The notes under the pieces are model-generated. The model saw nothing but the letters and a program-made list of their open reading frames with translations. It ran no database searches and had not been told where the DNA came from. Shown here piece by piece: positions 32 through 13,346 of a DNA stretch of 29,794 bases (position 1 is its first letter; each line of letters starts with the position of its first letter). A program made the position numbers and the translations under genes. The stretch comes from a virus: the IMG/VR virus record IMGVR_UViG_3300025293_000024, positions 1-29,794 of that record, one strand, 5' to 3'.

Positions 32-448
32 ATGGCTGACAAGAGAATTGACCGGATCACGATTGAGATCAAGACCGGAAACGCGGCATTTGACCAGGAC
101 GTTTTTGGTGAGGTGGCGCGGGTCCTGCAACGGCTCGCCAGCCGCATGGATGGGGTCGACAGCTGGGGAGAATCCTGGCAGTCCCGCCCGGAGACCGCTC
201 ACGATTCCAATGGCAACACGGTGGCCGAAGTGACCTACCACGAGGCTACCCCGGCGGAGGAGGAATACACCTGGGCCGATGCCCGAGAAATGGCCGCGGC
301 CTGCAATGGCAGGTCCCAGCACGTCGCAGACAATCGGCTGGACGTGACATTTGCTGACGGTTCGCACCGCGTCTACGACCATCCCGCCACCGCCGTCGAC
401 GACATGGCCGACATGCTGGCCGATATCGACGGATCAGTTGACTTTTGA
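32..448 (+). CDS. Small acidic phage protein of unknown function
   Basis: A 138-aa protein starting at ATG 32 behind an AAAGG ribosome-binding site. The first 40 residues (an ITIEIKTGNAAF strand followed by a helix with EVARVLQRLASRM) resemble a small protein I recall from many phage early regions. Residues 70-138 are acidic, with a DVTFADGSHRVYDHP segment. No catalytic motif, signal peptide or membrane segment is visible. It is the first complete gene of the + strand cluster and is followed 11 bases later by the next start, so it is probably co-transcribed with it. The promoter must lie to the left of the window. Function is unknown; that it is a real gene is well supported by codon pattern, ribosome-binding site and gene packing. 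Confidence 0.8.
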   Translation: MADKRIDRITIEIKTGNAAFDQDVFGEVARVLQRLASRMDGVDSWGESWQSRPETAHDSNGNTVAEVTYHEATPAEEEYTWADAREMAAACNGRSQHVADNRLDVTFADGSHRVYDHPATAVDDMADMLADIDGSVDF

Positions 449-459
449 AAGGGGAGACC

Positions 460-651
460 ATGAGAGAATCAGAAACGCCGTTTGTACGTTACAAGATCGT
501 CCGATTTTGGAACCCTGCAGTCCCACGAAAGAGCCACCGAAAAACCATGCAAACCGGGCTCACGCTGGAGGAGGCTCAAAAACACTGCAACGACCCGCTT
601 ACCCGGAAAGAGGGTGAATGGTTTGATGGGTACACGCAGGAGGGGGGCTAG
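460..651 (+). CDS. Small conserved phage protein
   Basis: A 63-aa protein. The ATG at 460 is chosen over an in-frame TTG at 445 because AAAGGGGAG (448-456) sits just upstream of it. The sequence pattern (YKIVRFW near the start, TGLTLEEAQKHCNDP in the middle, GEWFDGY near the end) matches a small protein that I recognise from many phages, whose role is not known. The middle segment looks like a short helix. It lies between two equally small early genes and ends three bases before the start of the Gp88-like gene, so translation is probably coupled through this operon. Confidence 0.8.
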   Translation: MRESETPFVRYKIVRFWNPAVPRKSHRKTMQTGLTLEEAQKHCNDPLTRKEGEWFDGYTQEGG

Positions 652-653
652 CA

Positions 654-1310
654 ATGCGAATGACCAAGCCACTAGCCACCGCAATTACCGGGGGCCTCGG
701 GAGCCCCTCGAAAATGCCAGGTCACGCATGGGGAATCCCAACGTCAGAATGCCAGGTTGGCGGGGTGCTCAAGCTGCTCCCGGGGACCGGCTGAAGTATC
801 TGCTACGCCGAGCGCGGACGTTTTCGGTTCGAGAACGTGCAGAACAAACTATGGGCGTCCCTCGAGTTGTTCAACATCGCCGCGGAGAGCCCCCAGGGCC
901 TCGACCGCTGGGCAGCTGCAATGGCCTACCTTATCAACGACACTGGCAACCGCTGGTTTCGCTGGTTCCATTCTGGCGACCTTCAATCCCCTGCAATGGC
1001 CCGGGCCATCTTCCGCGTTTGCGAATTGACTAAACGTGTCCGACACTGGATGCCGACCAGGGAACGCGACCACATCAGGGACGCGGAGCCCTGGACGGCT
1101 CCCAGAAATCTCACAATTCGCTGGTCCGGGACGATGGTGAACGGGAACCCTCCCAAATGGGCACGGTTGTGCTCAGTCATCTCCACCGGGGACCGCCGGC
1201 ATGGCAGGAGATGCCCCGCCCACATGCAAGGCAACGCATGCGGAGATTGCCGAGCCTGTTGGGATCAACGCATCACCGTGATCGAGTACGAGGTAAACAA
1301 CGTTAATTAG
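654..1310 (+). CDS. Gp88-like phage protein read through an in-frame UGA (candidate selenoprotein, or nonsense-disrupted gene)
   Basis: The reading frame starts at ATG 654 behind a very strong AGGAGGGGGG site and runs to TAG at 1308-1310, giving 218 codons interrupted only by TGA at 792-794 (codon 47). Both sides match one phage family that I know as Gp88-like: a KMPGHAWGIP segment near residues 20-29, PGTG-UGA-SICYAERGRF at 43-57, WFRWFHSGDLQS around 100-111, and a cysteine cluster C187-x8-C196-x2-C199-x2-C202 followed by WD. In relatives I recall, codon 47 is the first Cys of PGSxCxxCYA, so the UGA falls on a probable metal-binding or redox residue. TGC to TGA is one base. No other stop or frameshift is present. 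Other genes here end in TGA, so the code is standard. Possible readings are selenocysteine (UxxC motif, hairpin downstream at 818-838), a 46-aa truncated peptide plus a GTG 837 internal start with poor ribosome site, or a sequencing error. The family's function is unknown. Confidence 0.7.
818..838 (+). promoter_or_regulatory. Hairpin downstream of in-frame UGA, candidate bacterial SECIS
   Basis: Bases 818-825 (ACGTTTTC) pair with 831-838 (GAGAACGT) as eight continuous base pairs, one of them G-U, closing a five-base loop GGTTC (826-830). The loop starts 31 bases after the UGA at 792-794. Bacterial SECIS elements are known to lie just downstream of the UGA inside the coding region, with a short stem and a G in the first two loop positions; the E. 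coli fdhF loop also contains GGU. As I recall, published search models allow roughly 16-37 bases between UGA and loop. The fit is by eye; no folding energy was computed, and an eight-base-pair hairpin can occur by chance in GC-rich coding DNA. Confidence 0.4.
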
Positions 1311-1327
1311 AAGGGACGGACCCCGCA

Positions 1328-1417
1328 ATGACCGGAACGGCTCTAGGCTTGGCAATCCTCGCGATTGCCCTGATTATCATGGGGACAATCGACATATTCG
1401 GAGGAAACGACCAATGA
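1328..1417 (+). CDS. 29-aa single-span membrane peptide
   Basis: A small open reading frame from ATG 1328 to TGA 1415-1417. Residues 4-24 are almost entirely Ala, Leu, Ile, Gly and Met and would form one transmembrane helix; the tail is short and polar (GGNDQ). GAAGGGACGG lies about ten bases upstream as a plausible ribosome site. The stop overlaps the next start as ATGA, typical of translationally coupled phage genes, and without it there would be a gap of about 100 bases in an otherwise packed cluster. No function can be assigned; tiny membrane peptides of this kind in phages include inhibitors and lysis accessories, but nothing here singles one out. Confidence 0.6.
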   Translation: MTGTALGLAILAIALIIMGTIDIFGGNDQ

Positions 1418-1713
1418 CGTTGGACGAGTGCGCGGAGGTTATCGCGCGATGCGACGCCCAGACCGGTAGCAACCTAGCGGAACGGCTGCAGCGGCAGCTA
1501 AACCCCGAGGGGTATCTACCGCCACCGATCGAGGAAACAGGCAAAGACGGACGGCCCCGGCCCGCGTCGCCGATGAACACGCGGCTGGCATACGCTCGCC
1601 AGTTCGCCGGATACGCCATGGAACGGCTGTCCAAGACCAACAGCCCGTTCCCCAACAGCTGCCACGTCAACGAGAACGGGCCGATTGACGGCCCACACCC
1701 TTACTTCGACTGA
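1414..1713 (+). CDS. Hypothetical phage protein (99 aa)
   Basis: The start ATG 1414 overlaps the stop of the preceding peptide gene as ATGA, and GGAGGAAACGACCA just upstream supplies the ribosome site. The N-terminal 35 residues look helical (TLDECAEVIARC, then ERLQRQL). A short proline- and glycine-rich stretch follows, then a second helix (TRLAYARQFAGYAMERL) and a polar C-terminus ending PHPYFD. No known motif was recognised. It is soluble, with no signal peptide. It belongs to the + strand early cluster by position and spacing. Confidence 0.7.
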   Translation: MTLDECAEVIARCDAQTGSNLAERLQRQLNPEGYLPPPIEETGKDGRPRPASPMNTRLAYARQFAGYAMERLSKTNSPFPNSCHVNENGPIDGPHPYFD

Positions 1714-1727
1714 AAAGAAAAAGGCAA

Positions 1728-2114
1728 ATGACAGACCAGGACAAATCAACACCAACGAACACCTCGGAAAACACCATCAACCACCAACCACCAACCACCG
1801 AGTGGAAGACCCAGGTCGTTCCCTGCAATTTCCTCTGGATGCTTGCCGAGTTCGGCAACATCGCACCGGGGCTGGCCGAGTGCCAGGGGGCGAAGGACGG
1901 GTTCCATGTCACGTGGTACATCGAGCGAGACTGGTTGCCCAGGGGGAAGTGGGACGAGGTTTGTTTCCTGTGCTACCGCGAGGGCAAGATCAGGGCAGGT
2001 TTTAATGGGAAGTTCCTCAGCAAGTACTACACCGAATATCACGCGATCCTCGGGATGGCCGAGAGCAACGACGCGGAGTGGATTGACTACGACGACCCGA
2101 AGGGAGGGAAGTGA
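1728..2114 (+). CDS. Hypothetical phage protein (128 aa)
   Basis: Starts at ATG 1728 after an A-rich AAAAAGGCAA ribosome site, 14 bases past the previous stop. Residues 1-25 are a threonine-, asparagine- and proline-rich, probably disordered leader. The rest looks like a compact alpha/beta domain with many tryptophans (WKTQVVPCNFLWMLAEF, WYIERDWLP, then KFLSKYYTEYHAIL). No family was recognised. The stop TGA (2112-2114) overlaps the next gene's ATG by one base, so the two are probably translated together. Confidence 0.7.
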   Translation: MTDQDKSTPTNTSENTINHQPPTTEWKTQVVPCNFLWMLAEFGNIAPGLAECQGAKDGFHVTWYIERDWLPRGKWDEVCFLCYREGKIRAGFNGKFLSKYYTEYHAILGMAESNDAEWIDYDDPKGGK

Positions 2115-2326
2115 TGCCGAAGTGGAATCCGCCAACGCCATACGAGCGATGCGAAAACGCAGGGCATAAACGGGCGCGACACAGCCCCGATGGCGAGACG
2201 GTACTCGAGGAGTGCAGCATCTGCCGGCTGCAGTGGGTCATGCCGAGCCGATGGTCGTTCCTCTACAGGCCGAAGACGATTTACAACCCGAGTGTCTTCA
2301 AGAGAAGAAGATCAAACAACGACTAG
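2114..2326 (+). CDS. Small putative zinc-binding protein
   Basis: A 70-aa basic protein. ATG 2114 is preferred to the GTG at 2111 because it overlaps the previous stop as TGATG and follows GGGAGGGAAG. C13, H18, H23 and the pair C34-x2-C37 could hold one zinc ion, though the spacing does not match a named finger that I recognise. The C-terminus is strongly basic (KRRRSNND), which would suit nucleic-acid binding. It is the last + strand gene, and its TAG stop (2324-2326) shares three bases with the stop of the convergent SNase gene. Function is inferred only from composition. Confidence 0.6.
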   Translation: MPKWNPPTPYERCENAGHKRARHSPDGETVLEECSICRLQWVMPSRWSFLYRPKTIYNPSVFKRRRSNND

Positions 2327-2700
2327 CCCATGTAGCGGACGGCGTGGCCGGCCCTCAGCAATTCGTCATTTACGCAGACGAGTTGCTGGGGGCTTTTTTC
2401 GATCCACAATTCACACAGCCAGCGTCCCCACTTGCCCTTCTTGCGGCCCTTGTGGGTCTTCAGAAGCACCTCGCCGTCCTCGGGCAGCATCTCCCTCACG
2501 AAATCCCGTGCGGCACGTCCTGCCACCCTGCTGGGCCCTCTCAACTCAGGGGTATCAACCCCCAACAGCCTCAGCTTTTGGCGGTGCAGGTACACGCCAA
2601 AGCCCAACGAGACAGTTGCCGTTGCGCTGTCGCCATCGTATACATCCTCGGGGAGGATGATGGCACGATATCCGAACCTACTTGGCTTCGCCCTGGACAC
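2323..2700 (-). CDS. Staphylococcal-nuclease-like (thermonuclease) protein
   Basis: A 125-aa protein with the SNase OB-fold signature. By alignment to staphylococcal nuclease, D24 (in YDGD), R44, D49 and E52 (in RLLGVDTPE) and R93 (in KWGRWL) correspond to the metal ligands and the two catalytic arginines, so the active site looks complete. Such enzymes cut single- and double-stranded DNA and RNA with calcium. No signal peptide is seen, unlike many bacterial SNases, so it probably acts in the host cytoplasm, perhaps in host DNA breakdown. It is the last gene of the minus-strand block and overlaps the end of the upstream gene by 23 bases. Family assignment is firm; biological role is inference. 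Confidence 0.9.
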   Translation of the reverse strand: MSRAKPSRFGYRAIILPEDVYDGDSATATVSLGFGVYLHRQKLRLLGVDTPELRGPSRVAGRAARDFVREMLPEDGEVLLKTHKGRKKGKWGRWLCELWIEKSPQQLVCVNDELLRAGHAVRYMG

Positions 2701-2977
2701 GTCGGATTCCTTTCACGACTGGCTTCCCGTCCACGCTCATGATCTCCAACTCCCACTCCTGCGTCTCGGGGGCCACCACCGCGGGAGACGGATCAACCAC
2801 CAACGGTGCGGTATCTGGCTTCATCTGGAACAGGCCACTGGCAATGCCAAGACCACCCCCGGCCAACGTCGCCAGGGCGAGGCCCTTCCAGAAGCCACCA
2901 CCGTCGATGAGGTTGACCGCACCGTTGCTGGGGTACGTTCCAACGTCAACCTCACCAAGACCAGCATCCTTGGCCAT
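2678..2977 (-). CDS. Small single-span membrane protein
   Basis: A 99-aa protein from ATG 2977, chosen for the AGGAG site seven bases upstream. Residues 28-50 are a glycine- and alanine-rich hydrophobic helix, followed by a proline-rich linker and a small C-terminal beta-rich domain (EWELEIMSVDGKPVVKGI). The frame stays open upstream, and a second ATG at 3088 also has an AAGGAG site; that start would add 37 basic residues and overlap the upstream gene by 62 bases, so two products are possible. The glycine-rich membrane segment resembles those in phage virion or lysis accessory proteins, but no family was recognised. Confidence 0.65.
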   Translation of the reverse strand: MAKDAGLGEVDVGTYPSNGAVNLIDGGGFWKGLALATLAGGGLGIASGLFQMKPDTAPLVVDPSPAVVAPETQEWELEIMSVDGKPVVKGIRRVQGEAK

Positions 2978-3026
2978 CGTCTTTCTCCTGATCTTCAATC
3001 GCTGAGCGATATCGTGAGCCCAGATA

Positions 3027-3257
3027 TTAGCCACCAGTTGCCTCTGCCTCGATTTCGTTTGATAGACCGATTTCGCCGCCTCCTTCATCGCTGAACTCCT
3101 TGATGAAGCTCCGATCCAGTTCAACTAGCTCGGACATTGCCCTCTCCTGCTGATCGGCCAGGCGAAGGGCGAGCGCGACCGCCTCCTGCAGACGGCCTTG
3201 CTCATCCAACGCCAACAGCCTCGCAGCCTCTTCCCGTTGCTCAACCGTCGTCAGCAT
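3027..3257 (-). CDS. Short acidic coiled-coil protein
   Basis: A 76-aa protein whose ATG (3255-3257) overlaps the previous stop as ATGA, indicating coupled translation; there is no strong ribosome site of its own. Residues 5-50 are rich in Glu, Ala, Leu, Gln and Arg and should form one long amphipathic helix or coiled coil. The C-terminus is acidic and glycine-rich. No function is recognised. It sits in a run of small genes following the secreted protease and holin-like genes. Confidence 0.6.
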   Translation of the reverse strand: MLTTVEQREEAARLLALDEQGRLQEAVALALRLADQQERAMSELVELDRSFIKEFSDEGGGEIGLSNEIEAEATGG

Positions 3258-3457
3258 CAGGAACTCGGGTTGATTGGAGCCTCACGCATCATCAACTGCC
3301 GAGCAGCCGCAGCTTCCATCACGTCCGGCTCGCTCAAGGTCTTCAAAAAGACGCGGTCCACGAGCACGAGGGTCGTTTGCGATGCGTCACCAGCACGACC
3401 GATTCGCTCGCCAGCTGCAGCCTCAAGCAGGCTCTGGAGGTCTACTGTACTCGCCAT
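3257..3457 (-). CDS. Hypothetical small protein (66 aa)
   Basis: ATG 3457 lies just past the TAG stop of the protease gene, and the AAGGAG ribosome site overlaps the end of that gene. The protein looks mostly helical, with a short beta stretch (TTLVLVDRVFL) in the middle. No cysteine, signal or membrane segment was seen, and no family was recognised. Its tight spacing on both sides argues that it is a real operon member rather than a chance frame. Confidence 0.6.
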   Translation of the reverse strand: MASTVDLQSLLEAAAGERIGRAGDASQTTLVLVDRVFLKTLSEPDVMEAAAARQLMMREAPINPSS

Positions 3458-3461
3458 TTCT

Positions 3462-4322
3462 CTACTCCTTCACAGGTCGCAGCCTGATCCTGATGGTAGC
3501 CCTGAAGTTGCTGCGCCAATCTTCCAGGGACTCCAGCCTCGACAAGAGGTCTGATGTGTCTGATGCCGTCCCTGGCGGGCCTGCTGGCCCAGTATCTCCT
3601 CTACCCCCAGCAGGACCGGCGGGACCAGCTGGCCCCGTCTTCCCCTGGGATGGTTCTAATTCCGCCAACCGCCGCTTCAACTCCAGTATCTCCCGGGTGC
3701 GGTCCTTGTCGCCCCAATCCGACCCCTCTGGACGTGGACCGAACGCTTTGTGTTCCTTCAGGAAGGCAACCAGCTGGGCATGACTCGACGAGAACAGTTC
3801 CTTGTCGTCCTTCCCATGGCTGGCAACTCCAATCAGGCTGCCACCAGCATACACCCCAGCACCCGAATCTCCATCGCGATACTTGCCGCCTGACACCTTG
3901 TACCCACGACGCATGAACATCTGTTTGGTTGACGTGTCCCGAATCTCACGCGGGCCCGTTGATTTCAGCTGCTTGGGGCCGTGCCTACCATACGCGGTGA
4001 CCACCTTTGCATCCGGGGCCGCGGCCACGACCCGAGCCAGGGACTGGCCTGAGCTTGGGATCTTGAACAGCGCGAGGTCGGTCTTCTCGTCAGCAGCTAC
4101 CCAACTGCCCTTCACCCTGCTCCCACTCTGCAGGATGACGTACACCGTGGTGCCAACCTTGCCAGAGCAGTGGGCTGCACTGACCCCATATGTGTGCTCC
4201 AGGTCGCGGTAGACCAGCGTGCCACTGCATCCACCGACCTGGACTGCCCCACGAGGGAGGAGGTTCGACGCGGGGACAGCCGAACACAACACAAGAGCCA
4301 GCGCAGCCACTGCGAACCTCAT
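3462..4322 (-). CDS. Secreted trypsin-like serine protease with collagen-like tail
   Basis: A 286-aa protein. Residues 1-19 are a Sec signal peptide (hydrophobic MRFAVAALALVLCSAVPAS; not a good lipobox). Residues about 25-195 are a chymotrypsin-fold domain with the full triad: H51 in SAAHC, D82 in KTDLAL and S153 in DGDSGAG. C32 and C52 could form the usual bridge beside the histidine. Residues 203-222 are a charged helix. Residues 227-253 are nine Gly-X-Y triplets with Pro in many X positions, that is, a short collagen-like triple helix. A final helix (258-272) and a basic strand follow. The protein is therefore probably exported and trimeric. It follows a holin-like gene directly. Secreted trypsin-like enzymes are rare in phages; the target could be host envelope proteins. 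Domain calls are firm, role is inference. Confidence 0.88.
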   Translation of the reverse strand: MRFAVAALALVLCSAVPASNLLPRGAVQVGGCSGTLVYRDLEHTYGVSAAHCSGKVGTTVYVILQSGSRVKGSWVAADEKTDLALFKIPSSGQSLARVVAAAPDAKVVTAYGRHGPKQLKSTGPREIRDTSTKQMFMRRGYKVSGGKYRDGDSGAGVYAGGSLIGVASHGKDDKELFSSSHAQLVAFLKEHKAFGPRPEGSDWGDKDRTREILELKRRLAELEPSQGKTGPAGPAGPAGGRGDTGPAGPPGTASDTSDLLSRLESLEDWRSNFRATIRIRLRPVKE

Positions 4323-4535
4323 CTACTCCTCCTTCTTCTTCTTCCTGCCGTTGGCCTGGATCATTGATCGGCCCGCCTCAAACCCGCCAACTACCAGCAA
4401 TAGTTCGAGGATAGTGGTGATCTCCGTTTTGTCGAAGCTGGTGCTGTTGAGCCACAAAAACAGGGTGAGTCCGACGAAAATTACCGCGAGTCGGATGATT
4501 CCCCAAACAGGATGCTTGCCATTGATCTCCACCAT
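4323..4535 (-). CDS. Two-helix membrane protein, holin-like
   Basis: A 70-aa protein with an excellent AAGGAGG site before ATG 4535. Residues about 10-30 and 38-56 are hydrophobic helices, and the C-terminus is a dense charged tail (NGRKKKKEE). Two transmembrane helices with a short polar N-terminus and a highly charged C-terminus is the usual build of a class II holin, which opens the inner membrane at the end of infection. The stop abuts the start of the secreted protease gene. No endolysin is recognisable next to it, so the holin call rests on size and topology only; another small membrane protein is possible. Confidence 0.55.
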   Translation of the reverse strand: MVEINGKHPVWGIIRLAVIFVGLTLFLWLNSTSFDKTEITTILELLLVVGGFEAGRSMIQANGRKKKKEE

Positions 4536-4584
4536 GTAACCTCCTTGTTATAATCAGCCCTGGCCCGTCTCATCACGGATGACC

Positions 4585-4974
4585 TCACGGGGACGGATCC
4601 CCGGACGGGCCACCTACCACGACAATCTCCACACGGGGATCGTCCTTGTCAACATCGACCTCTGGCATCTGCGGCTTGAACCCGTAGTCATCAACACCCA
4701 GGGCCGCTGCTATCCCATCATAAGCGTATTTCAGCATCGCGGCCATGTTATCCCGATCGCGGCGACGACGGTCCTTGTAGTAGAATGTCGCCTGCAGCTT
4801 CGCTTCAGACCAGTCAACGTCCCCCCGCCTCCGAGTCACAAGCTCTGTGAAACAGGCCACCCGACACGCTTCGCGGTACTTCTTCGAGTGTTTATGACGG
4901 GTTCGCCAGTGGCAGCGTGAGTTAGGGCTCAGCTGCCTCGGAGGGAGGGGACAAACTACGGTCAGCTGGTTCAT
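4585..4974 (-). CDS. rusA: RusA-like Holliday junction resolvase
   Basis: A 129-aa protein of normal RusA length. It has the family's LPP-x3-SPN-x-R opening (residues 10-20), the acidic metal site D73 and D75 in RRDRDN, a YDGIAAALGVDD helix with D95/D96, and a short C-terminal strand (VEIVVV). E. coli RusA uses D70, D72 and D91, which correspond. RusA dimers resolve four-way DNA junctions made during phage recombination and replication, here fitting the Rad52-like protein upstream in the same strand. ATG 4974 has an AAAGGTGG site, and the gene overlaps the upstream zinc-finger gene by 53 bases. Confident family call. Confidence 0.9.
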   Translation of the reverse strand: MNQLTVVCPLPPRQLSPNSRCHWRTRHKHSKKYREACRVACFTELVTRRRGDVDWSEAKLQATFYYKDRRRRDRDNMAAMLKYAYDGIAAALGVDDYGFKPQMPEVDVDKDDPRVEIVVVGGPSGDPSP

Positions 4975-5968
4975 CTGCGGCCACCTTTCGTTTCAACGTC
5001 TCGCGTCTCTTGGGAAGTCCAACCGCGATATTCCTGGCACCCTTGCACGAATTCGAGCAGAAAACAGGTAGTTCCCGCCTCACCCTGAGTTCCTGGACGC
5101 TTGTGCCAAGAAACTCCAGACCGCAATGATTGCAAGATAGATCGAATCTGCGGCCACGGTAATACGCAGTACGGCAGGCGTCGTTGCAATACAAGCGAAC
5201 TGCGCTAAGAGGGTTATGCCTGAATTCCTTCTGGCACTGCCGGCACAAGGAAGTGCGGGCAGTGGACTCATCGTATTCAGCAACACGAAGAGCCAATGCC
5301 TTGCCGGAATGCTCCTTCGCCTCAAGGCTTCGTTTATGTGGACCGACCGAGGAACCATTGTTCTCAAGAAAAGCAGCAGAAACGCCATGCTTGGCAATAG
5401 TCTTCTTGGCTCGCTCAGAGAACATCTTGAACAGGCGAGGAGTGATCAGGCCGGTTTTTTCATTGAATCCGACCATCCTCTTGAACTCAGAAGCCGTGAT
5501 CCCGTGAGTAAAATTCACATGATTGCCAAGGTTCTCGCCAATCCAGTCGCAACCCTCAACAAGACAAGGCAATTCTCCTTTGATCAGGAACTCGTCGTAG
5601 CACTGGGGCAAGGCAATCCCCTGCGGATCGGCAATCCAGCGATCAAACCGCTTCGCCATGTATGCTCGGTAGCACACCCGAGAGCAGTATTTCTTCGACT
5701 TGTACTGGGAGGGTCTCACGTAGAACTTCTCGTCGCACTCCAAACAACGCTTTGAAGGACGCTCGCCAGGCTTGAGACCGGCCTTGATCCTGGCCCTGGC
5801 CGCCGCCTTCTCGTTGCTAAGTCGAATTGTCTCCTTCATCAACGGAGACTTGGCGTAGCAGGCCATTGAACAGAACTTCTTCTTCTTGTCGTAGGACCGA
5901 AACAACACGTCGCACTCCAGGCAACGGCCACGAATCGGACCACGCTTCCCAACAATCTTATCCTTCAT
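4922..5968 (-). CDS. Multi-zinc-ribbon protein with a MucR/Ros-like finger
   Basis: A 348-aa basic protein with five apparent zinc sites: C16/C19/C33/C37, C75/C78/C95/C99, a central C135/C140/H150/H155, C242/C245/C261/C265 and C279/C282/C304/C308. The four Cys4 sites share a CxxC-F-CSxxC pattern and look like tandem duplicates. The central one, followed by GITASEFKRMVGF, resembles the Ros/MucR zinc finger that binds DNA in alphaproteobacterial regulators. The C-terminus is basic, then acidic. The start overlaps the upstream stop as ATGA. It is probably a DNA-binding regulator or an HNH-associated type of protein without the nuclease; no catalytic motif was found. Confidence 0.75.
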   Translation of the reverse strand: MKDKIVGKRGPIRGRCLECDVLFRSYDKKKKFCSMACYAKSPLMKETIRLSNEKAAARARIKAGLKPGERPSKRCLECDEKFYVRPSQYKSKKYCSRVCYRAYMAKRFDRWIADPQGIALPQCYDEFLIKGELPCLVEGCDWIGENLGNHVNFTHGITASEFKRMVGFNEKTGLITPRLFKMFSERAKKTIAKHGVSAAFLENNGSSVGPHKRSLEAKEHSGKALALRVAEYDESTARTSLCRQCQKEFRHNPLSAVRLYCNDACRTAYYRGRRFDLSCNHCGLEFLGTSVQELRVRRELPVFCSNSCKGARNIAVGLPKRRETLKRKVAADEPADRSLSPPSEAAEP

Positions 5969-6279
5969 TCCGTGGCCCCCTCTGGCTCAGCCGTATCATC
6001 ATCGATGTAGGGTTTGGACCGCTTGGGAGTCACCAGCATGTCCATCGCCTCCTGGTGCATCTCGGCGGCTGAGAAGTTATGCTCCCCAGCGATCTCCTGA
6101 TGGGTCCACAGGATATCGTGCTTCCAGCCAGCATCGAGGAGACGCTGCATCCGCTGGCGGATCACCTTCGCTGGCGGGGCCTCCTGGAACCTCGCCTGGT
6201 CGAGTCGGTAATCCTCCCCCATGATGCCAGCATCACTGGGGGATCCGTAGTTGTCGCTACTTGGCTTCGGTATCGGCAT
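5965..6279 (-). CDS. Hypothetical phage protein (104 aa)
   Basis: ATG 6279 with AAGGAAA upstream is preferred to an in-frame TTG at 6297. The N-terminal 25 residues are polar and probably disordered. Residues 35-85 look helical (KVIRQRMQRLLDAGW, then FSAAEMHQEAMDML), and the tail is acidic. The helical part could be a small DNA-binding or adaptor domain, but no named family was recognised. It overlaps the methyltransferase gene by 23 bases and the zinc-ribbon gene by four, so the three should be made together. Confidence 0.6.
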   Translation of the reverse strand: MPIPKPSSDNYGSPSDAGIMGEDYRLDQARFQEAPPAKVIRQRMQRLLDAGWKHDILWTHQEIAGEHNFSAAEMHQEAMDMLVTPKRSKPYIDDDTAEPEGATE

Positions 6280-7135
6280 CGATCGGTTTCCTTGCAATGG
6301 TTAGTGTGTATCGCAACTTCTTGTGTGCCAGCAGAGCAGCCATCCCCACACAGGCCAGCCCGTGCAGCTGCGTCCGCAACGGGATGCAATTGGTCCCGTC
6401 ACGGTAGATGGCCCTGCCAGCTGAGTCGAAAATCGACTCGGCCACGTTGGGGGTGAAGTCAAGCTCCTGCTCCACCTCGAACCCCGCGGTGACCAACTCA
6501 GTCATCAGCGGCACCTCGTACAGGTCCGGGACGTGGAACCCAGACCGCACGTCATCGTACAGGTCCTTGAGCGTCTTCTCGCCTGGGTCTGCCCCATCGT
6601 CAGGCACGTCACCCTCCAGCATGGCATCCAGCACAAGGAACACGCCACCAGGAACGAGTGAGTTCTTCACGTTGGCCAGGACCGCTTGCCGGTCCCATGA
6701 CTGGCACAGGCTCTCGACCGCGTAGACCCCGTGGAGGTCACGAAAATACTCGGGCAACGACGGATCGTGGTAGTCGAAAGCCACCACGTCGACAAACGCG
6801 GGAAGTTTCATTATTGCAATACGCTCTTCCTTGATGCTTGAGCAGACACCTGCCAAATCCCAAGAACGACTGCGTTTAGAGTGGAGGTGTTTCAGGGTGC
6901 CGCCAATCCCGCATCCCAGATCCAACACGTTCCAACCTCCCTCGTCCGATCGAGGAGGCATTTCCCTGACCAGGGTGTTCTCGATGAGCCGGTTAGTGTT
7001 GATCTTGGGCTTGGTGCTCATCCCGTCTATGTGCAGCCCGTAGTGGACGCACCCGTCCGAGGCCCCGTTCTCCAGCCTCGACAGCCACACGTCCTCGTAG
7101 TAGGTGGCCACTTCCCTCAGCTGTTCCTTGTTCAT
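6257..7135 (-). CDS. Class I SAM-dependent methyltransferase
   Basis: A 292-aa protein from ATG 7135, which overlaps the previous stop as ATGA; the longer upstream frame has no support. Motif I is VLDLGCGIGGT (residues 70-80), followed by an acidic motif near FDYHDPSL and a PGGVFLVLD strand. The N-terminal helix-rich part with SDGCVHYGLHID resembles small-molecule methyltransferases of the tocopherol, sterol and sarcosine group more than DNA methyltransferases, and no DPPY or PC motif for DNA modification is present. The substrate cannot be read from sequence. In a phage it may alter a host metabolite, lipid or modified base. The fold is sure; the substrate class is a weak inference. Confidence 0.82.
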   Translation of the reverse strand: MNKEQLREVATYYEDVWLSRLENGASDGCVHYGLHIDGMSTKPKINTNRLIENTLVREMPPRSDEGGWNVLDLGCGIGGTLKHLHSKRSRSWDLAGVCSSIKEERIAIMKLPAFVDVVAFDYHDPSLPEYFRDLHGVYAVESLCQSWDRQAVLANVKNSLVPGGVFLVLDAMLEGDVPDDGADPGEKTLKDLYDDVRSGFHVPDLYEVPLMTELVTAGFEVEQELDFTPNVAESIFDSAGRAIYRDGTNCIPLRTQLHGLACVGMAALLAHKKLRYTLTIARKPIDADTEAK

Positions 7136-7590
7136 GCCTTGTCCTTTAGCAGTTTCTCGATCTCCGGGATCGCTTCCTCGTATGCCCGGGATACGCAGGT
7201 GAAGAACTTGTCGAGGTCCAGGTCCAGCCCGAAGTTGCCCATCTCCGAGAGACGGGTCAGCTGGGTGATCACCCGGTACTTGCATGCGTTCCTCTTCAGC
7301 TTCTCGATTATCGTGGGCACGGGCTTCTCAGGGTTGTCCCACTCAACCGAGAGGACTTTGAGGAGCCACTTCTTGAGGTGGTGGTAGTCCTTGATCTTGC
7401 CACCGCCGCCCCCGTGCTGCAGTTCCGAGACGATCGCCTGTAGCTCCGGGTCACCCCAGTCGTGAGGCTCAACCGACTCTCTCCAGGTCTTGCTCCCCAG
7501 CATCACTCCCAGTACCACCAGTTCCAGTGCCCTGGACGGTGACACCCTCTCCTCCTCGGGACTGTGTTCCCTCTTCCGCGATGATGACAT
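7132..7590 (-). CDS. Hypothetical protein, possible DnaB N-terminal-like domain
   Basis: A 152-aa protein. Residues 18-60 (a RALELVVLGVMLGSKTW helix, then DPELQAIVSEL) have the look of the DnaB helicase N-terminal domain, which mediates replisome contacts; the rest is helical with a basic middle. The likeness is weak and there is no ATPase part. ATG 7590 has only a weak AAGG site and lies 122 bases inside the preceding gene; an ATG at 7506 would shorten the overlap but lose the helix. The stop overlaps the methyltransferase start as ATGA. Confidence 0.55.
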   Translation of the reverse strand: MSSSRKREHSPEEERVSPSRALELVVLGVMLGSKTWRESVEPHDWGDPELQAIVSELQHGGGGGKIKDYHHLKKWLLKVLSVEWDNPEKPVPTIIEKLKRNACKYRVITQLTRLSEMGNFGLDLDLDKFFTCVSRAYEEAIPEIEKLLKDKA

Positions 7591-7840
7591 CGTACAGCCT
7601 TGTTAGCAGTTTGACGGAAACTGGCTCCTGCTTCCTGAAGATCCGAGACATGTGGTACTTGTTCACGCCCACTCGCTCAGCCATGTACGTCTGAGTCCAC
7701 CCAAACGCTTCCTTCACCTCAACGAGTATCTTGTGCCCATATTCCGAGGCATCCTTCCTGGACCGGTCCATGAGGTAGTACGAGTTGGCCAGACGTTCCA
7801 GGTGCCACATCGACTCGTTGGGCATCTCTTTGGTGTTCAT
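7469..7840 (-). CDS. Helix-turn-helix (XRE-type) regulator
   Basis: A 123-aa protein from ATG 7840 behind a good AAAGGA site. Residues about 43-70 hold the helix-turn-helix (AFGWTQTYMAERVGVNKYHMSRIF), followed by a helix PVSVKLLTRLYDVI, the usual XRE/Cro layout. The C-terminal 40 residues are Gly-, Thr- and Glu-rich, and lie wholly within the next gene's reading frame, so they may be unstructured. The frame stays open to ATG 7969, which would add 43 residues containing a CRVC pair behind a weaker GAGGG site. As a repressor it could act on the inverted repeat just upstream at 8027-8045. Confidence 0.75.
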   Translation of the reverse strand: MNTKEMPNESMWHLERLANSYYLMDRSRKDASEYGHKILVEVKEAFGWTQTYMAERVGVNKYHMSRIFRKQEPVSVKLLTRLYDVIIAEEGTQSRGGEGVTVQGTGTGGTGSDAGEQDLERVG

Positions 7841-8026
7841 AGCTGTCCTTTCTTCAACGGTTCCGCCGTCCCCGCGACTTGTTTTACGACGCTCGCAGAC
7901 TCGGCAATTCCTCACGTCGTTCTCGATACCAAAGGGAAGGTATTTCCCAGCGAGCCATCGGTAAGGCATCGCCAGTCCCTCGCTTTGGGCAGGGGTCAGA
8001 TCACACTAATCAGAACAAATTGTCCC

Positions 8027-8045
8027 CCGGGGATCTGATCCCGGG
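8027..8045 (-). promoter_or_regulatory. Inverted repeat upstream of HTH gene, operator or weak terminator
   Basis: GGGATC (8030-8035) and GATCCC (8037-8042) are inverted around one base, extended by CCGG on both sides with a single-base bulge. It follows the stop of the 79-aa gene by a few bases. On the minus strand it is followed by GACAATTTGTTC rather than a clear run of T, so it is a poor terminator. Being just ahead of the HTH gene it could be that protein's operator. The rest of the gap 7841-8052 has no supported gene other than the possible N-terminal extension of the HTH protein. Confidence 0.3.
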
Positions 8046-8052
8046 CAGTCAG

Positions 8053-8292
8053 CTACTTCTTGTTTATGTCATCCAACGGTTCCCCTGTCCAAAGATCCAG
8101 TCCCGCGGTCTCCCGCTCGCTCATGACTTCAATCCACTGATCGTGGCCTGGGACCTTCCCACCGACCGTGTTCCGAGGCCCTGCAGCTGTCGACGCTGGG
8201 CGGTTCTGACCACCAACCGGATGACGATACGCCCCTATCACGTTCTGCATCAGCGGCAATATCTCCCGTGTCCCCGTCCAGTTCTTCCCCAT
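8053..8292 (-). CDS. Hypothetical phage protein (79 aa)
   Basis: ATG 8292 has a near-perfect AAGGAGG site with seven-base spacing, which is the main reason for calling it. The protein is polar, with a helical start, a central GGQNRPASTAAGP linker and an acidic, mostly helical end (HDQWIEVMSERETAGLDLWTGEPLDD). No family was recognised. It shares 164 bases with another minus-strand frame (8129-8377) whose first 25 codons carry a zinc-ribbon-like motif, so one or both may be translated. It is the last gene before a gap of about 210 bases. Confidence 0.6.
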   Translation of the reverse strand: MGKNWTGTREILPLMQNVIGAYRHPVGGQNRPASTAAGPRNTVGGKVPGHDQWIEVMSERETAGLDLWTGEPLDDINKK

Positions 8293-8377
8293 GATCGCCT
8301 CCTTGCGTACATGCTGGGCACAGCTGTTCCACGCTGAGCCTCTCGAAATCAGAATAGCATTCCTGGCATATCCCCAT
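8129..8377 (-). CDS. Possible zinc-ribbon small protein overlapping the next gene
   Basis: The ATG at 8375-8377 overlaps the helicase stop as TAATG, which favours real translation. The first 25 residues give C4-x2-C7 and C20-x2-C23 (GICQECYSDF, then LCPAC), a standard Cys4 ribbon spacing. After about residue 35 the sequence becomes acidic, then Ser-, Arg- and Trp-rich, and looks like a shadow of the 8053-8292 gene in another frame. The true product could be this 82-aa protein or a frameshifted fusion to the neighbour. Only the N-terminal part is convincing. Confidence 0.4.
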   Translation of the reverse strand: MGICQECYSDFERLSVEQLCPACTQGGDHGEELDGDTGDIAADAERDRGVSSSGWWSEPPSVDSCRASEHGRWEGPRPRSVD

Positions 8378-10065
8378 TAGACGTGAGCCCAGTTGTTCTT
8401 GGCCAGCCTGCCAATAAGCCCGCTCGCCTCCTGGCGACTCATCTCCTTCGTTGCCAATCCATGCTTCTTGAGAAGCCGGCACTGCTTGTAGCTGGCCAGC
8501 TGTTCCTTCGACCTCCCGATCAGCGAGTCCATCAGGGTGCTCGCCCCGTGAAAGGTAAGATCCTCAATCCTGTGCCACTCGACTCCAAACTTCGCGAGGG
8601 CCTCTTTCTGTTTGTGAGTGGGCATTCGACCCTTGTGCCATCCCGGTTCACGAGATGGAACGACATCGAGGACTCCGAAGGGGTCGGCACGTCTTGCGTC
8701 GTAGGAGACTTGCCTCGCCACAATCTCACGACGCTGTTCCAGATGAGTCGCATGGGCCACCTCCGCTTCTTCCAGGGCGCGGAGCACGTCGCCGCCATCC
8801 TCGGCCAGCTTCTCCTTCGCCAACTCGACCACCTCGTCCGGGTACTTGCCACCCAGCACATCGGTGCTCGTGATCAGCTTGTGCCTGCTGTTCCCAACAA
8901 AGTCAAGTATCTTGATGTGCGGCTTGGCACTGGCAGCGATCGCCGCCTTCCGTTCGTCCGGTGTCTCCAGTCTCCAGCCGTCACCCTCGATCACCCCGGG
9001 TAGTATCCTCGTGCCCCTGCCACACATCTGGGCCACCAGGCTACGGCTCTTGGAGGGACGTCCCATGCTCAGCGTCTGCACCTGCGGGCAATCGTACCCC
9101 TCGGTGAGACAACCCACGTTGACCGCGTACTGGTAGAACCCCTTGGCAAACCCCTGCAGGGCCCGCTTCCTGGCCTGCTTGTCCCGTGAGTTCACAACGT
9201 GCTGGTAGTTCTCACTGGCCGGGACCTTGGACACAAGGCAGAACGCACGACCTTCCATCTTCCGGTTGAATATCTCAGCCAGCCGGCTCGCCTGCTGGAT
9301 ACCAGCTGCAAAGACCATGCACTGTTCACTCCCGGCTATCTCCATCGTGGGCATGGCCACCTTGTGCAGCACGACCTCCCGCGACATCTCCGACTGCAGG
9401 GCCTTACCCTGGAAGTCGCCACCCTGAATCTTGATCTCGTTGAACTGGATATCGTCAACCGTGATGATCTCCTGCTGGATCGGGACCAGCCAGCCATCCC
9501 CGATGGCCGAGGGGCCACCCGCGGGGTCCATCAGCGGGTACTCAAACGCCACGGTATCGAACGTCTGCCCCAGTGCCAGTTCATCCGTCCGGTCTGGCGT
9601 GGCCGTGGCACCCAGCACCCGCAGGTCAGGATTCACGCTGAAGTAGTCCAGAATACGCTGGTACGTCTTGTTCTGGTGTACCGCGTGATGAGCCTCATCG
9701 ATGATGATCAACCCCACCTCCTTCGGGTCGGGGAACGCTCGCTTGAGCCGCTTCTCACGGTACAGGCTGTCCTTGGATGCAAACGTCATCTTGGACTTCG
9801 GGTTGCTTGATCGTCGGAACTCACCCATCTCGATCTCACCATGCTCACCCGTCTTCTGCTGCCACCGCTCCCACGGTTGCCAGACCAACTCCTCCCGGTG
9901 AGCCAGGACAAGCACCTTCCCCTGCGGCCAGCGGTCAGCGATCTCCAGGAACGTCTCGGTCTTCCCCGTCCCTGTCGGCATCACCATCAATGCCGAGGTG
10001 AAATCGTTCAATGCCGAGATCGAGTCAGCGCAGCACGTCACTTGAAAGTCACGCAGGTAGCTCAC
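8377..10065 (-). CDS. SF2 DEAH-type DNA helicase
   Basis: A 562-aa helicase of the UvrB/RecG-like SF2 superfamily. Visible motifs are Walker A PTGTGKTE (30-37), DEAH at 123-126, GATATP (152-157, motif III) and QMCGRGTR (346-353, motif VI), so both RecA-like domains are complete. The C-terminal 170 residues (from about 390) include a basic helical region and an MPTHKQKEALAKFG helix that I recall from restriction-type and phage helicases. The start is GTG 10065, overlapping the preceding stop as GTGA. It probably unwinds or remodels DNA in phage replication or recombination, with ParB-like, Rad52-like and RusA neighbours. No nuclease domain is attached. Confidence 0.9.
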   Translation of the reverse strand: MSYLRDFQVTCCADSISALNDFTSALMVMPTGTGKTETFLEIADRWPQGKVLVLAHREELVWQPWERWQQKTGEHGEIEMGEFRRSSNPKSKMTFASKDSLYREKRLKRAFPDPKEVGLIIIDEAHHAVHQNKTYQRILDYFSVNPDLRVLGATATPDRTDELALGQTFDTVAFEYPLMDPAGGPSAIGDGWLVPIQQEIITVDDIQFNEIKIQGGDFQGKALQSEMSREVVLHKVAMPTMEIAGSEQCMVFAAGIQQASRLAEIFNRKMEGRAFCLVSKVPASENYQHVVNSRDKQARKRALQGFAKGFYQYAVNVGCLTEGYDCPQVQTLSMGRPSKSRSLVAQMCGRGTRILPGVIEGDGWRLETPDERKAAIAASAKPHIKILDFVGNSRHKLITSTDVLGGKYPDEVVELAKEKLAEDGGDVLRALEEAEVAHATHLEQRREIVARQVSYDARRADPFGVLDVVPSREPGWHKGRMPTHKQKEALAKFGVEWHRIEDLTFHGASTLMDSLIGRSKEQLASYKQCRLLKKHGLATKEMSRQEASGLIGRLAKNNWAHV

Positions 10066-10352
10066 TTATCAAACCCTCTCCGCTTTCCAAATTTCACGTT
10101 CAGACCTGGGTCTGGATCCATGTAGTCTTCCCAATCGATGAGTTCAGCCGATCCACCAAGGGTGCGAGTGTCCCTGGCAGAACGGCCAATCTCCTCGGTG
10201 CCCCTTCTGCTCAGATCTCTCACCCTCAACACTGATGAATACTCATTGAGAAGGATCTTCTTGATGCACTTTTTACAGAACCGCCCGTCGTTCGTTTCTG
10301 CCTCCTGTTTGACACATTCGGCACACATCCCGTCAGGTCTCGGATCCGGCAT
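10062..10352 (-). CDS. Small zinc-ribbon protein
   Basis: A 96-aa protein from ATG 10352, placed six bases past the ParB-like stop with a GAGGAAG site. C10-x2-C13 and C26-x2-C29 (MCAEC, then FCKKC) form a Cys4 zinc site. The rest is basic with an acidic stretch (ELIDWEDYMDPDPG). An in-frame start at 10409 would lie inside the preceding gene and is unlikely. It is tightly coupled to the helicase gene (GTGA overlap). Probably nucleic-acid binding or a helicase partner; this is inference from position and composition. Confidence 0.7.
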   Translation of the reverse strand: MPDPRPDGMCAECVKQEAETNDGRFCKKCIKKILLNEYSSVLRVRDLSRRGTEEIGRSARDTRTLGGSAELIDWEDYMDPDPGLNVKFGKRRGFDK

Positions 10353-10357
10353 CCCTG

Positions 10358-11299
10358 TCACTTCCTCAACCCCTCGGGCAATGCGTTGTACTGATCCCTG
10401 TGCATCCACCCCAGCTGGTCACACATGTCGCACCCCTTCCCCTTGCAGACCGGGCACACCGCATGTGGCCGAGCCGCGATCAGGGCGTTCGACACGTTGC
10501 TGCAGTCAGCCTCGACCGCCCGCAGCGGCAGCAACTCGCCACCCTCCTCCTCCGAGATGACCCGGGCACTCGCCTTGATCTCACCAATCTTGTAGATCAG
10601 GCCCCGGATCCCCTTCGATGTCTTGAACGTATCGATGAGATTTTCTGGCACCGGGATCTCGTTCCCGTCAACCACGGGAGCCTTCTCGCGCTCGACAGCC
10701 TTGTGCCCCTTGCTGACCGAGCGGTTGAGCATCCGACGCAGGTCAGCTGCCTTCGCCTCGTCACCACCGGCCTCGGCCTCATCGATCGCCTTGACAACGA
10801 CACTGGCCTTCTCGGCAGTCTTGCCACTCATCCCGACAGCTTGGGCAGCGATGTCTCTCGCCTTGCCAGACTGCCCTTCTTCTGCCTTTTTCCCTCTCCC
10901 GCTCCCGAGTTTTCTGCCTTCCGCCAGTCGACTCTCAACCTCCTTCAGCACATCGAACTCACGAGCCCGCTGCTCATTGGTCTTGTCACGCTGCCGGTTG
11001 GACAGGATCAGCAGGCGGATGGCCTCGTCGTCGGTCCCGACCAACTCATCGGGCTGAATGATCACCGGGACCTCGTCCATCTCCAACGCCCTGGCCGCGT
11101 TCATCCGGCGATGCCCCGAGAGGACCACTGTCAGCGGGGCCCCGTCTGTCAACTCCTCCTTCGCCAAGATGGGCTCCAGAACGCCAAGACGCTTGATCGA
11201 CTCGATGAACTCCTCATCCGGTGCATCACGGTAGATATCCTCATTGACCTCGTGAGGCTCCAAGTCAAACGGGTTCATGTAGATCACTTTGTATGTCAT
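10358..11299 (-). CDS. ParB-like nuclease-domain protein with C-terminal zinc motif
   Basis: A 313-aa protein. ATG 11299 with GTGAGAAG is chosen over a TTG at 11314. The N-terminal 110 residues are a ParB/sulfiredoxin-fold domain with the hallmark SGHRRMNAA box (61-69) preceded by IESIKRLGVLEPI. The middle is basic and helical (about 120-200), consistent with a DNA-binding HTH region. The C-terminus ends in a CPVCKGKGCDMCD cluster like the DnaJ/zinc-ribbon type. Phage ParB-like proteins of this sort often act in replication or as DNA-binding CTPase-type factors rather than partition, and no ParA is present. It overlaps the upstream gene by 35 bases. Confidence 0.85.
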   Translation of the reverse strand: MTYKVIYMNPFDLEPHEVNEDIYRDAPDEEFIESIKRLGVLEPILAKEELTDGAPLTVVLSGHRRMNAARALEMDEVPVIIQPDELVGTDDEAIRLLILSNRQRDKTNEQRAREFDVLKEVESRLAEGRKLGSGRGKKAEEGQSGKARDIAAQAVGMSGKTAEKASVVVKAIDEAEAGGDEAKAADLRRMLNRSVSKGHKAVEREKAPVVDGNEIPVPENLIDTFKTSKGIRGLIYKIGEIKASARVISEEEGGELLPLRAVEADCSNVSNALIAARPHAVCPVCKGKGCDMCDQLGWMHRDQYNALPEGLRK

Positions 11300-11753
11300 A
11301 CTTCTCACTTTCAATTGCTGATACCACGTCGATAATATTCTTGGCTATCACTGACGTGCAGCAATCCAGCAGTTCCCGGGCAACTGGAATCGCACCGTAG
11401 GCAATCGCCATGTCCATCGCGTCCACAAAGTCCTTCCCGACTTCCTCCAGATGAATCTGTTTTTTTATAGCCTCGTCGGCTCTGTCTATGCGCTCCTCGG
11501 CAGTGGGCGGTTTCAACGAGAGACCTTTCTTGTCCAACTGCCTCTTGATTGCGTCCACCGTGGAGGGACCGCAGTTCTTGACCGAGAGTAGCTGCGACTC
11601 GGTGGTCCTGCAAAGTTCGTCCAGCCTGGTGATTCCCAGACTCGCGAACGCTTTGCGCGCCCTGACCACCCAGAAGAAATCCTCCTTGAGTTGATCCCGC
11701 TCAGCAGCGTCTGCCTTTCTGTGCGCCTCGACCGACTCCGGTAGAATTGTCAT
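11265..11753 (-). CDS. RNA polymerase alpha-CTD-like helix-hairpin-helix protein
   Basis: A 162-aa protein whose residues 30-81 closely follow the C-terminal domain of the bacterial RNA polymerase alpha subunit: an AFASLGITRLDELC helix, LLSVKNCGPSTVDAIK hairpin, then LDKKGLSLK. In alpha that domain binds UP-element DNA and activators. No other alpha part is present. The remainder is helical with a C-terminal acidic stretch. ATG 11753 overlaps the previous stop as ATGA behind GAGGAGAT. It might bind phage promoters or compete with host alpha, which would make it a transcription regulator; the domain could also simply bind DNA in a recombination role. The likeness to alpha-CTD is strong by eye; the function is inference. 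Confidence 0.75.
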   Translation of the reverse strand: MTILPESVEAHRKADAAERDQLKEDFFWVVRARKAFASLGITRLDELCRTTESQLLSVKNCGPSTVDAIKRQLDKKGLSLKPPTAEERIDRADEAIKKQIHLEEVGKDFVDAMDMAIAYGAIPVARELLDCCTSVIAKNIIDVVSAIESEKYDIQSDLHEPV

Positions 11754-12556
11754 ATCTCCTCACCTTCCTCCATTGCTGCCACGAGCATCTCACCCACGGG
11801 GACACCCTTTTCCACGTTCACCTGGATCAGGTCGAGGGTCGCATTGACCAGTGCCTCTGAGTCCCGGATCTCACCGATCGAAGACTTCGTACCGTCCCAC
11901 AACCACTCGACCACCTTGTTCGCCTCCTCCGGGCCCTTGCACCCCGCCTTCATCAAGGCCTCGTTCAGCTGATCCACAGGCTGGATTTCCTCCTCCACTG
12001 CCGGTGGCTCTTCCCGGGGGGCAGGGGAGCCCTTGGGGCTTGAATTCCCGGGGAGAGCCCAACTCGGCAGCTTCGGAGGTAGCCAAAAGAACCACTTGTC
12101 GCCACCCGGTCCCTGGCACTTCGCCCGCTTGGCCCCGGGCATCTTGTTGTCACTGACCTCAGCCCACCCCTCATCCAAATCGTAGAGGTAGCGACCGATC
12201 CCCCACTGGCAGGCTGCTCGCTTCATGCTGTCCGAGAGGGCAGACTTCACCGCCTCGATGTCACGGGCATCGGCACCGTCCCACTTGGTGACCCAAAGCT
12301 CCGTGTCCAAACAGGCAAGGACCGAGAGGCCGCAGATCACGCCGCCAGCGGGGCCAGCCTTGTACTCGTTGCTCCATCGCCAAGGACCCAGGACATCATC
12401 CAACCTCTGTTGGATCGCCCGGTTCGTCACATACGCCAGACACAGTGCCCAGACGTTCCCGTCCTTCTTGCACCCGCTGCGACCGATCCTCCACTCCACC
12501 TCCTGCGGTGCAAACGGGGCCTGCAGACTCTCCCAATCGATATCAACTGTCATCAT
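11750..12556 (-). CDS. Rad52-family single-strand annealing protein
   Basis: A 268-aa protein. Residues about 8-140 follow the Rad52/22 family: LQAPFAPQEVEWR, a RLDDVLGPWRWSNEY helix, a WDGADARDIEAVKSALSD stretch and the closing KRAACQWGIGRYLYDL. This family anneals complementary single strands during phage recombination and recombination-dependent replication. Residues 170-200 are a proline- and glutamate-rich linker, and a small helical domain follows. Two ATGs (12556 and 12553) follow GGGAAG; the second has the better spacing. It sits next to gp157 and upstream of RusA and a helicase, a usual phage recombination set. No matching exonuclease gene is in the window. Confidence 0.88.
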   Translation of the reverse strand: MMTVDIDWESLQAPFAPQEVEWRIGRSGCKKDGNVWALCLAYVTNRAIQQRLDDVLGPWRWSNEYKAGPAGGVICGLSVLACLDTELWVTKWDGADARDIEAVKSALSDSMKRAACQWGIGRYLYDLDEGWAEVSDNKMPGAKRAKCQGPGGDKWFFWLPPKLPSWALPGNSSPKGSPAPREEPPAVEEEIQPVDQLNEALMKAGCKGPEEANKVVEWLWDGTKSSIGEIRDSEALVNATLDLIQVNVEKGVPVGEMLVAAMEEGEEI

Positions 12557-12595
12557 CTTCCCTTTCCTGCTCCATCGTGATCAGGAGCAACTCGT

Positions 12596-13081
12596 CTACC
12601 TGATCCGAAGAGATGTACTCTTCACTAGTTCGCATCCTGGGACCAACTCCCCTTCCTTCAGCGAGGTGAGGATCGCTGACTTCAACACCTTGACCTCACC
12701 CTGTTCCAGGTACCGCGGGGGGATCACCGCCTGGTCGACGACTTCCACCCTGCCCGGGGTCTCAGCGACTCGCACTGTAAAAAGGTCATCCTTGACCAAG
12801 TCCATCTCCATACCGACCATCTGGTCGTGGACATAGCTCTTCAGCCAGACCGCCTTCCCCTTGAAGGACTGCTGCTTACCCTTCAGCCGGTCGATCTCCG
12901 CACCCACTGCAGCCACCGAGGACTCAAGCTCCTTGATGACCTTCACGCAGTTGACCACCTTCTCCTTGAAGCTGCCACCAAGGTGCTTGAGTTCCCCCAG
13001 CAACTCATGGCTGAGACCCCCCTCCTCGGTGGCCAGCTGCACGAGCTTGTCCATCTCCTGGGGATACTCATACAGCTTCAT
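12596..13081 (-). CDS. Gp157-family phage protein
   Basis: A 161-aa protein of the Siphovirus Gp157 family. The first 90 residues are a long coiled coil (KVIKELESSVAAVGAEIDRL), followed by LKSYVHDQM. The C-terminal 70 residues are the family's beta-strand block, with FTVRVAETPGRVEVVD, PPRYLE and a final VKSTSLRIR. In Streptococcus phage Sfi the family was linked to phage resistance; in other phages it lies beside recombination genes, as here, and a role with the annealing protein is likely. ATG 13081 has a GGAG site and overlaps the end of csrA by 14 bases. Confidence 0.9.
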   Translation of the reverse strand: MKLYEYPQEMDKLVQLATEEGGLSHELLGELKHLGGSFKEKVVNCVKVIKELESSVAAVGAEIDRLKGKQQSFKGKAVWLKSYVHDQMVGMEMDLVKDDLFTVRVAETPGRVEVVDQAVIPPRYLEQGEVKVLKSAILTSLKEGELVPGCELVKSTSLRIR

Positions 13082-13241
13082 CGACCCGCTCCTTCCCCAC
13101 CAACTCGTCCCGCAGGATCTTCACGTTGTCAGGGGCATCAACGCCCAAGCGAACGAAGTTGCCGTGCAATTCCAGCACGGTGACCGTGATCTCCCCATCC
13201 AGGACAATCGACTCGCCTTCCCTTCTACTCAACACCAGCAT
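13068..13241 (-). CDS. csrA: CsrA-type translational regulator
   Basis: A 57-aa CsrA starting at ATG 13241 with AAGGAGAAGG upstream. The protein opens MLVLSRREGESIVL, has a central VTVLELHGNFVRLGVDAP, and closes with a short helix, all standard CsrA features; the length is normal. CsrA dimers bind GGA motifs in mRNA leaders and block or stabilise translation, so this phage copy could redirect host carbon storage and motility genes or time phage genes. Its own leader has a GGA at the ribosome site, so it may regulate itself. It is the first gene after the promoter at 13276-13303, that is, one of the first made from this operon. The call is firm; targets are unknown. Confidence 0.95.
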   Translation of the reverse strand: MLVLSRREGESIVLDGEITVTVLELHGNFVRLGVDAPDNVKILRDELVGKERVDEAV

Positions 13242-13253
13242 TGCCTTCTCCTT

Positions 13254-13337: not shown

Positions 13338-13346
13338 CACTACGAG

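Follow-up and report, generated by a model that had tools for sequence, protein, structure and literature searches.

An in-frame UGA at a conserved cysteine of a Gp88-family phage gene: a probable nonsense allele with features of a selenoprotein gene

Proteins of the Gp88 family (PF17338 GP88, or phrog_1392, annotated as function unknown) share with the protein described here a match over the curated cut-off and a C-terminal CxxCRxCW cluster. The difference is that ours is the only lineage we have seen with a UGA at the first cysteine of the family's CxxCYA motif. Bacterial selenoprotein genes with a bSECIS element, for which FdnG-type formate dehydrogenase served as our control, have a Cys/UGA pair and a downstream hairpin, and the present gene has both, with the hairpin inside published limits. 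However, the spacing here is 31 nt versus 18 nt in FdnG, the stem is uninterrupted, and the hairpin was not seen in relatives. Among phages, the Basilisk-like Bacillus phages are likewise linked by sequence to selenocysteine, in their case by a tRNA-Sec gene described in PMC6145125 as the first such phage gene to its authors' knowledge. Unlike those phages, our record and the related phage records gave no tRNA, suppressor tRNAs included.

An earlier note on this DNA had proposed a phage selenoprotein in a family not known to use selenocysteine. That description of the family agrees with a 2026 review of prokaryotic selenoproteomes (PMC13188914), the one place where we checked it, as its main text has neither PF17338 nor Gp88. 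No phage selenoprotein is named in the titles and abstract openings that our literature searches listed.

The gene and its in-frame UGA

The window, by which we mean the whole stretch of DNA that was analysed, is the linear virus record IMGVR_UViG_3300025293_000024, with a length of 29,794 bases. It has the following features around the gene, with the basis for each in brackets.

638..653, + strand: purine-rich stretch ahead of the ATG that resembles a ribosome-binding site (read directly from the sequence)
654..1310, + strand: Gp88-family gene (PF17338, phrog_1392) of 218 codons with one in-frame TGA (translation, profile matches)
654..794, + strand: 46-residue peptide that would be expected if the UGA terminates (translation)
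792..794, + strand: in-frame TGA, codon 47, which in homologues is the first Cys of CxxCYA (translation, second contig, homologue alignment)
801..809, + strand: codons of C50-Y51-A52, the part of the motif (second Cys, Tyr, Ala) that is kept (translation, alignment)
818..838, + strand: SECIS-like hairpin of 8–9 bp with apical GGUUC (or GUU), on modest evidence (folding, SECIS tests)
822..824, + strand: codon 57, Phe replacing a conserved Tyr, within the 5' arm of the hairpin (alignment, folding)

Translation from the ATG at 654 confirmed what had first been noticed, a frame of 218 codons that is open except for the TGA at 792–794, where the protein reads PGTG*SICYA. The proposed Gp88-like identity held as well: with the TGA read as a residue, the translation matches PF17338 at 1.5e-21 (77.8 bits against a curated cut-off of 24.4, residues 46–205), and the read-through protein matches phrog_1392 at 3.3e-12 and has the C-terminal CxxCRxCW cluster. 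From the C-x2-C-Y-A motif of alignment A3, the second Cys, the Tyr and the Ala are present, and the first Cys is the UGA. Sixteen GenBank phage records match the protein, and the best of these (37–41% identity) include Roseobacter phages CRP-125, CRP-113 and CRP-171 and Pelagibacter phage HTVC033P. Other ORFs in the window match a helicase, an Erf-like annealing protein, a Gam-like protein and a ParB-like protein. Because TGA ends 9 of the 21 ORFs that we took as genes in the window, we rejected a general reassignment of TGA in this phage.

As far as assemblies can tell, the TGA is real. A second IMG/VR contig, IMGVR_UViG_3300025280_003255 (L001), has the same TGA and is 99.17% identical to the window over 4092 bp. 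Two of the 27 mismatches are inside the gene, at 1031 and 1041; both are synonymous and, lying 10 bases apart, they may be a single event. A read error had been left possible by the earlier note, and a private one is now unlikely because this second contig carries the TGA. Both records are assemblies, possibly from one sample, but the TGA is common to two records with 27 mismatches between them, two of these within the gene, and we consider it very improbable that an assembly or sequencing artefact explains it. Differences between the window and L001 cluster at 469–618, inside a small ORF (460–651), a pattern suggestive of a patch of recombination or of a hypervariable gene; only four differences fall between 1100 and 4300.

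An AlphaFold2 model of the Gp88 protein is confident (mean pLDDT 92.2). Its best structural rows are QueE (Z 5.7) and viperin (Z 5.4), both radical SAM proteins, whose scores fall short of a clear match and which are interspersed with GH18 barrels. The best PDB hit by sequence has an E of 0.12, and by fold there was no Foldseek match in the PDB at E <= 0.001. The radical SAM cluster motif is CxxxCxxC, a spacing that the window protein, with C33 ... C47xxC50, does not have. Because seven cysteines are conserved in the alignment (C33, C47, C50, C187, C196, C199 and C202), the set suggests metal or Fe-S binding, and with the weak radical-SAM resemblance C47 may serve to bind metal and not in redox chemistry. 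Selenocysteine at a metal- or Fe-S-binding Cys position would be unusual.

The replaced cysteine and constraint on the gene

Cysteine is found at codon 47 in 95 of the 95 viral homologues that cover it (the best 80 of at least 595 relatives were taken, the records may be partly redundant, and the 16 GenBank phage matches are left out of the Cys counts). It is also found in all 32 genome-contig loci that cover the codon, from 33 in total, and in the related phage G008. The UGA does then replace a conserved first Cys, as had been claimed. The viral set has 101 loci matching the protein: 95 with Cys, 3 that do not cover codon 47, and 3 with TGA, these last being the window plus the L001 contig in duplicate. 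A first scan over the genome contigs, run with only the window protein as query, found no relatives.

We found no independent homologue with a UGA, only the window/L001 lineage. A DNA pattern for the family with TGA at codon 47 has five matches in IMG/VR, and only the L001 contig among them is Gp88. A search for near-identical alleles with two exact patterns, in one of which codon 47 could have any third base, again gave only the L001 contig. A pattern with the TGA placed at the second Cys of the motif had six chance matches, none in Gp88, and with TGA at Trp104 no Gp88 gene was matched. On the basis of the homologue survey and these patterns, the UGA appears to be confined to one lineage (two records) among the homologues examined, and nonsense seems uncommon at the three positions that we probed (codon 47, second Cys, Trp104). 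The earlier note had listed scattered stops in relatives as a reason to drop its reading; apart from the TGA at codon 47, the stretches that matched hold just one stop each in L028, L129 and L136, close to the C-terminal end. From this gene, 9 of the 73 routes to a stop by a single base start at a Cys codon.

Other than the TGA, the 218-codon frame has no lesion and no frameshift. With Cys in place of the UGA, the window keeps 39 of the 44 columns that are conserved at >= 90% in the other 57 aligned members. Three of the five departures are common to the clade, and L002, L003 and G008 depart only at these. The two specific to the window are A30T, where it is alone among the aligned rows, and Y57F, in a column that has 54 Tyr, 3 Lys and 1 Phe (the window) over the 58 rows of alignment A3. 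Changes at two conserved residues hint at relaxed constraint. Y57F lies in the stem of the hairpin, which is compatible with the building of a hairpin and with relaxed constraint alike.

In a codon model of five sequences, with long branches that are near one change per codon, omega after the UGA is 0.104 on the window and L001 branches versus 0.054 on the others, values that do not differ significantly (2dlnL 2.8); an omega of 1 is rejected (2dlnL 20.5). Ahead of the UGA, the corresponding figures are 0.124 versus 0.019 (2dlnL 2.4, and 5.0 against 1). Because omega is well below 1 on these branches, we take the gene to have been functional for most of that time; omega cannot date the UGA, which possibly came late there. 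By parsimony, the split between the window and L001 is later than the UGA. Since the split, the gene has seen two synonymous changes and no others, which would have a probability of 0.05–0.07 without constraint.

Identity to the close relative L002, taken per 150 bases, is 67–87% at 600–1350, 95–98% at 1350–1800 and 66–100% further on. Across 80–5000 the window is patchy against L002 (0.66 to 1.00 per 150 bases), and 5975–18050 is 97% identical. Because of this patchiness in the left 5 kb, we regard the UGA allele as a divergent, perhaps recombinant, copy of the gene. Another record, L107, is 99.5% identical to 4998–20065 of the window and nothing in its 18.8 kb matches Gp88, so the gene may be dispensable to the phage; related records may be fragments. 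Beyond the point that matches window position 4998, L107 has differing sequence (15063–18736 of that record) that includes a terminase-like ORF.

The hairpin downstream of the UGA

The hairpin at 818–838 can be drawn with eight pairs and a GGUUC loop, or with nine and a GUU loop, and there are 31 (or 32) bases between the UGA and the first base of the loop. Its sequence is identical in the two UGA alleles, the window and L001. Limits for bacterial SECIS elements are given in the Fig. 2 legend of PMC13188914 as a loop of 3–9 nt, a stem of 4–16 bp, a spacing of 16–37 nt, a G in the first two loop bases and an energy of at most -7.5, and the hairpin is within these as written, G[GU] loop included. 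The folding check that the earlier note had proposed gave a split answer: the 21-mer 818–838 folded alone has -8.5 kcal/mol and a z of -2.8, but three longer stretches around it (51–66 nt) have z from -0.90 to +0.02, which does not improve on shuffled sequence. In Rfam, 600–1400 has no SECIS match with E up to 10, and the 143,675 bases of the window and related phage have no family at gathering score.

A test that calls for an uninterrupted stem is passed loosely by 55 of 994 TGA sites in the window and strictly, with a strict loop, by 12 of 994; for the Cys homologues, the counts are 2 of 95 and 0 of 95. We rejected this test as strong evidence because it passes 0 of 12 Sec-UGA sites in the FdnG controls. 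The bulge-tolerant test, in which bulges are allowed and the loop is G[GU], is passed by 12 of 12 genuine FdnG sites and by 57 of 250 random TGA sites in the window, 34 of them at -10.4, the energy of the window hairpin. At the homologous place in Cys relatives, whose base composition was not matched, 5 of 95 pass, and 1 of 95 at -10.4. The close Cys relatives L002, L003 and L004 fail and G008 barely passes (-7.6).

Because 57 of 250 random sites pass the bulge-tolerant test, we take the hairpin as modest support for a SECIS element. From the counts in this test we infer that it makes the odds on selenocysteine about four-fold higher when set against the window background, and higher still against the homologues (composition unmatched). 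The eight pairs, the GGUUC loop and the 31 bases are as originally described; about a quarter of random sites in the window have a hairpin that passes this more realistic test.

Weighing the explanations

We believe that 654–1310 is probably a nonsense (opal) allele of an accessory phage gene, and would put the probability at about 0.62. Ribosomes would start at 654 and stop at 792, and no Gp88 product would be made because the 46-residue peptide that is left lacks both the CxxCYA core and the cluster of C-terminal cysteines. The opal allele would have arrived as, or arisen in, a divergent gene copy, and at least two strains could carry it because the gene is dispensable to the phage or unneeded in its present host. 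For this reading we count that TGA is an ordinary stop here, that the UGA is in one lineage, that A30T and Y57F depart from conserved residues, that the hairpin fails in L002–L004, that the phage records searched have no tRNA, Rfam RNA or selB (the last in neither the window nor any of 8 related phage records), and that the gene is possibly dispensable (L107). Against it we count the clean frame, the 39 of 44 columns, the 9 of 73 Cys routes, the synonymous-only differences, the low omega and the rarity of the hairpin in Cys relatives.

In a selenoprotein, host SelA, SelB, SelC and SelD would decode the UGA through the hairpin at 818–838 and give a UxxC Gp88. We regard this as unlikely. In its favour, the Cys/UGA pair is set against Cys in every homologue covering the site, the UGA is in two records with no further lesion and with purifying selection on the branch, and the hairpin meets the limits in the legend of PMC13188914 with only 5 of 95 Cys homologues passing the bulge-tolerant form. 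The same review has UxxC as a recurring selenoprotein motif and names radical SAM and Fe-S proteins. SelB is over its curated cut-off in 7 of 16 genomes (of 33 with Gp88-carrying contigs), one of the seven being a partial match, so Sec-decoding hosts are plausible for Gp88-carrying elements in general; this is silent on the present phage. A host search with three proteins, two of them the major-head-like and the head-tail-adaptor-like protein of G008, had no match among GenBank phages, and the terminase or helicase had only distant ones. Standing against a selenoprotein are the single lineage, the failing or marginal hairpin in the close relatives, the random sites that pass, the lack of an Rfam SECIS match, a hairpin unlike the 12 FdnG elements (loop at 18 among the rows listed, no qualifying uninterrupted stem), and a C47 that may be a metal ligand and not a redox Cys. 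The fuller version, with selenocysteine as the U of a UxxCYA motif that may bind a cluster, host Sec machinery recruited by a newly evolved SECIS and Y57F as the price of the hairpin, is distinctly unlikely. By our own estimate, the UGA at a Cys, the clean frame, the hairpin and the common allele perhaps favour selenocysteine over a random stop by a few tens-fold. In our judgement the prior for a phage selenoprotein, compared with a nonsense allele of an accessory gene, is lower by more than that, and because it outweighs the evidence we rank the nonsense allele higher. Every test that we ran is compatible with selenocysteine, and none calls for it. The original selenoprotein reading keeps its family, its Cys/UGA pair, its intact frame and its hairpin within limits, and gains a second strain, but it is without an independent UGA homologue among those examined, a hairpin in L002–L004, or a selB, tRNA or Rfam RNA in the phage records searched. 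Low-level or regulated readthrough of the UGA with an ordinary amino acid, by a near-cognate or suppressor tRNA, would give a little full-length Gp88 and would suit the intact downstream frame and the purifying selection on the branch. We think it improbable, as the phage records searched have no suppressor tRNA, TGA is a normal stop elsewhere, and Trp or another residue in place of the conserved Cys would probably leave the protein inactive. A restart past the UGA, at GTG 837 or further on, with the C-terminal part made as a protein of its own, is very unlikely: an ORF with a GTG start does exist at 837–1310, but it is without the CxxCYA core of the aligned members and, as read from the sequence, has no convincing ribosome site ahead of it.

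If the nonsense allele is correct, a lone UGA at a Cys with a hairpin that passes can look like a selenoprotein in sequence assembled from environmental samples. If selenocysteine were true, we would have a clear example of a phage gene dependent on host Sec-decoding machinery and of a Cys-to-Sec switch with a SECIS arising in place, and the Gp88 family, without a selenocysteine member in the main text of PMC13188914, would gain one.

Elsewhere in the window, on the - strand, 13373–23911 is an ORF of 3,512 residues of which only parts match phage families of unknown function. The - strand ORF at 3462–4322 has a protease-like N-terminal part and a stretch near its C-terminus that matches tail fibre families.
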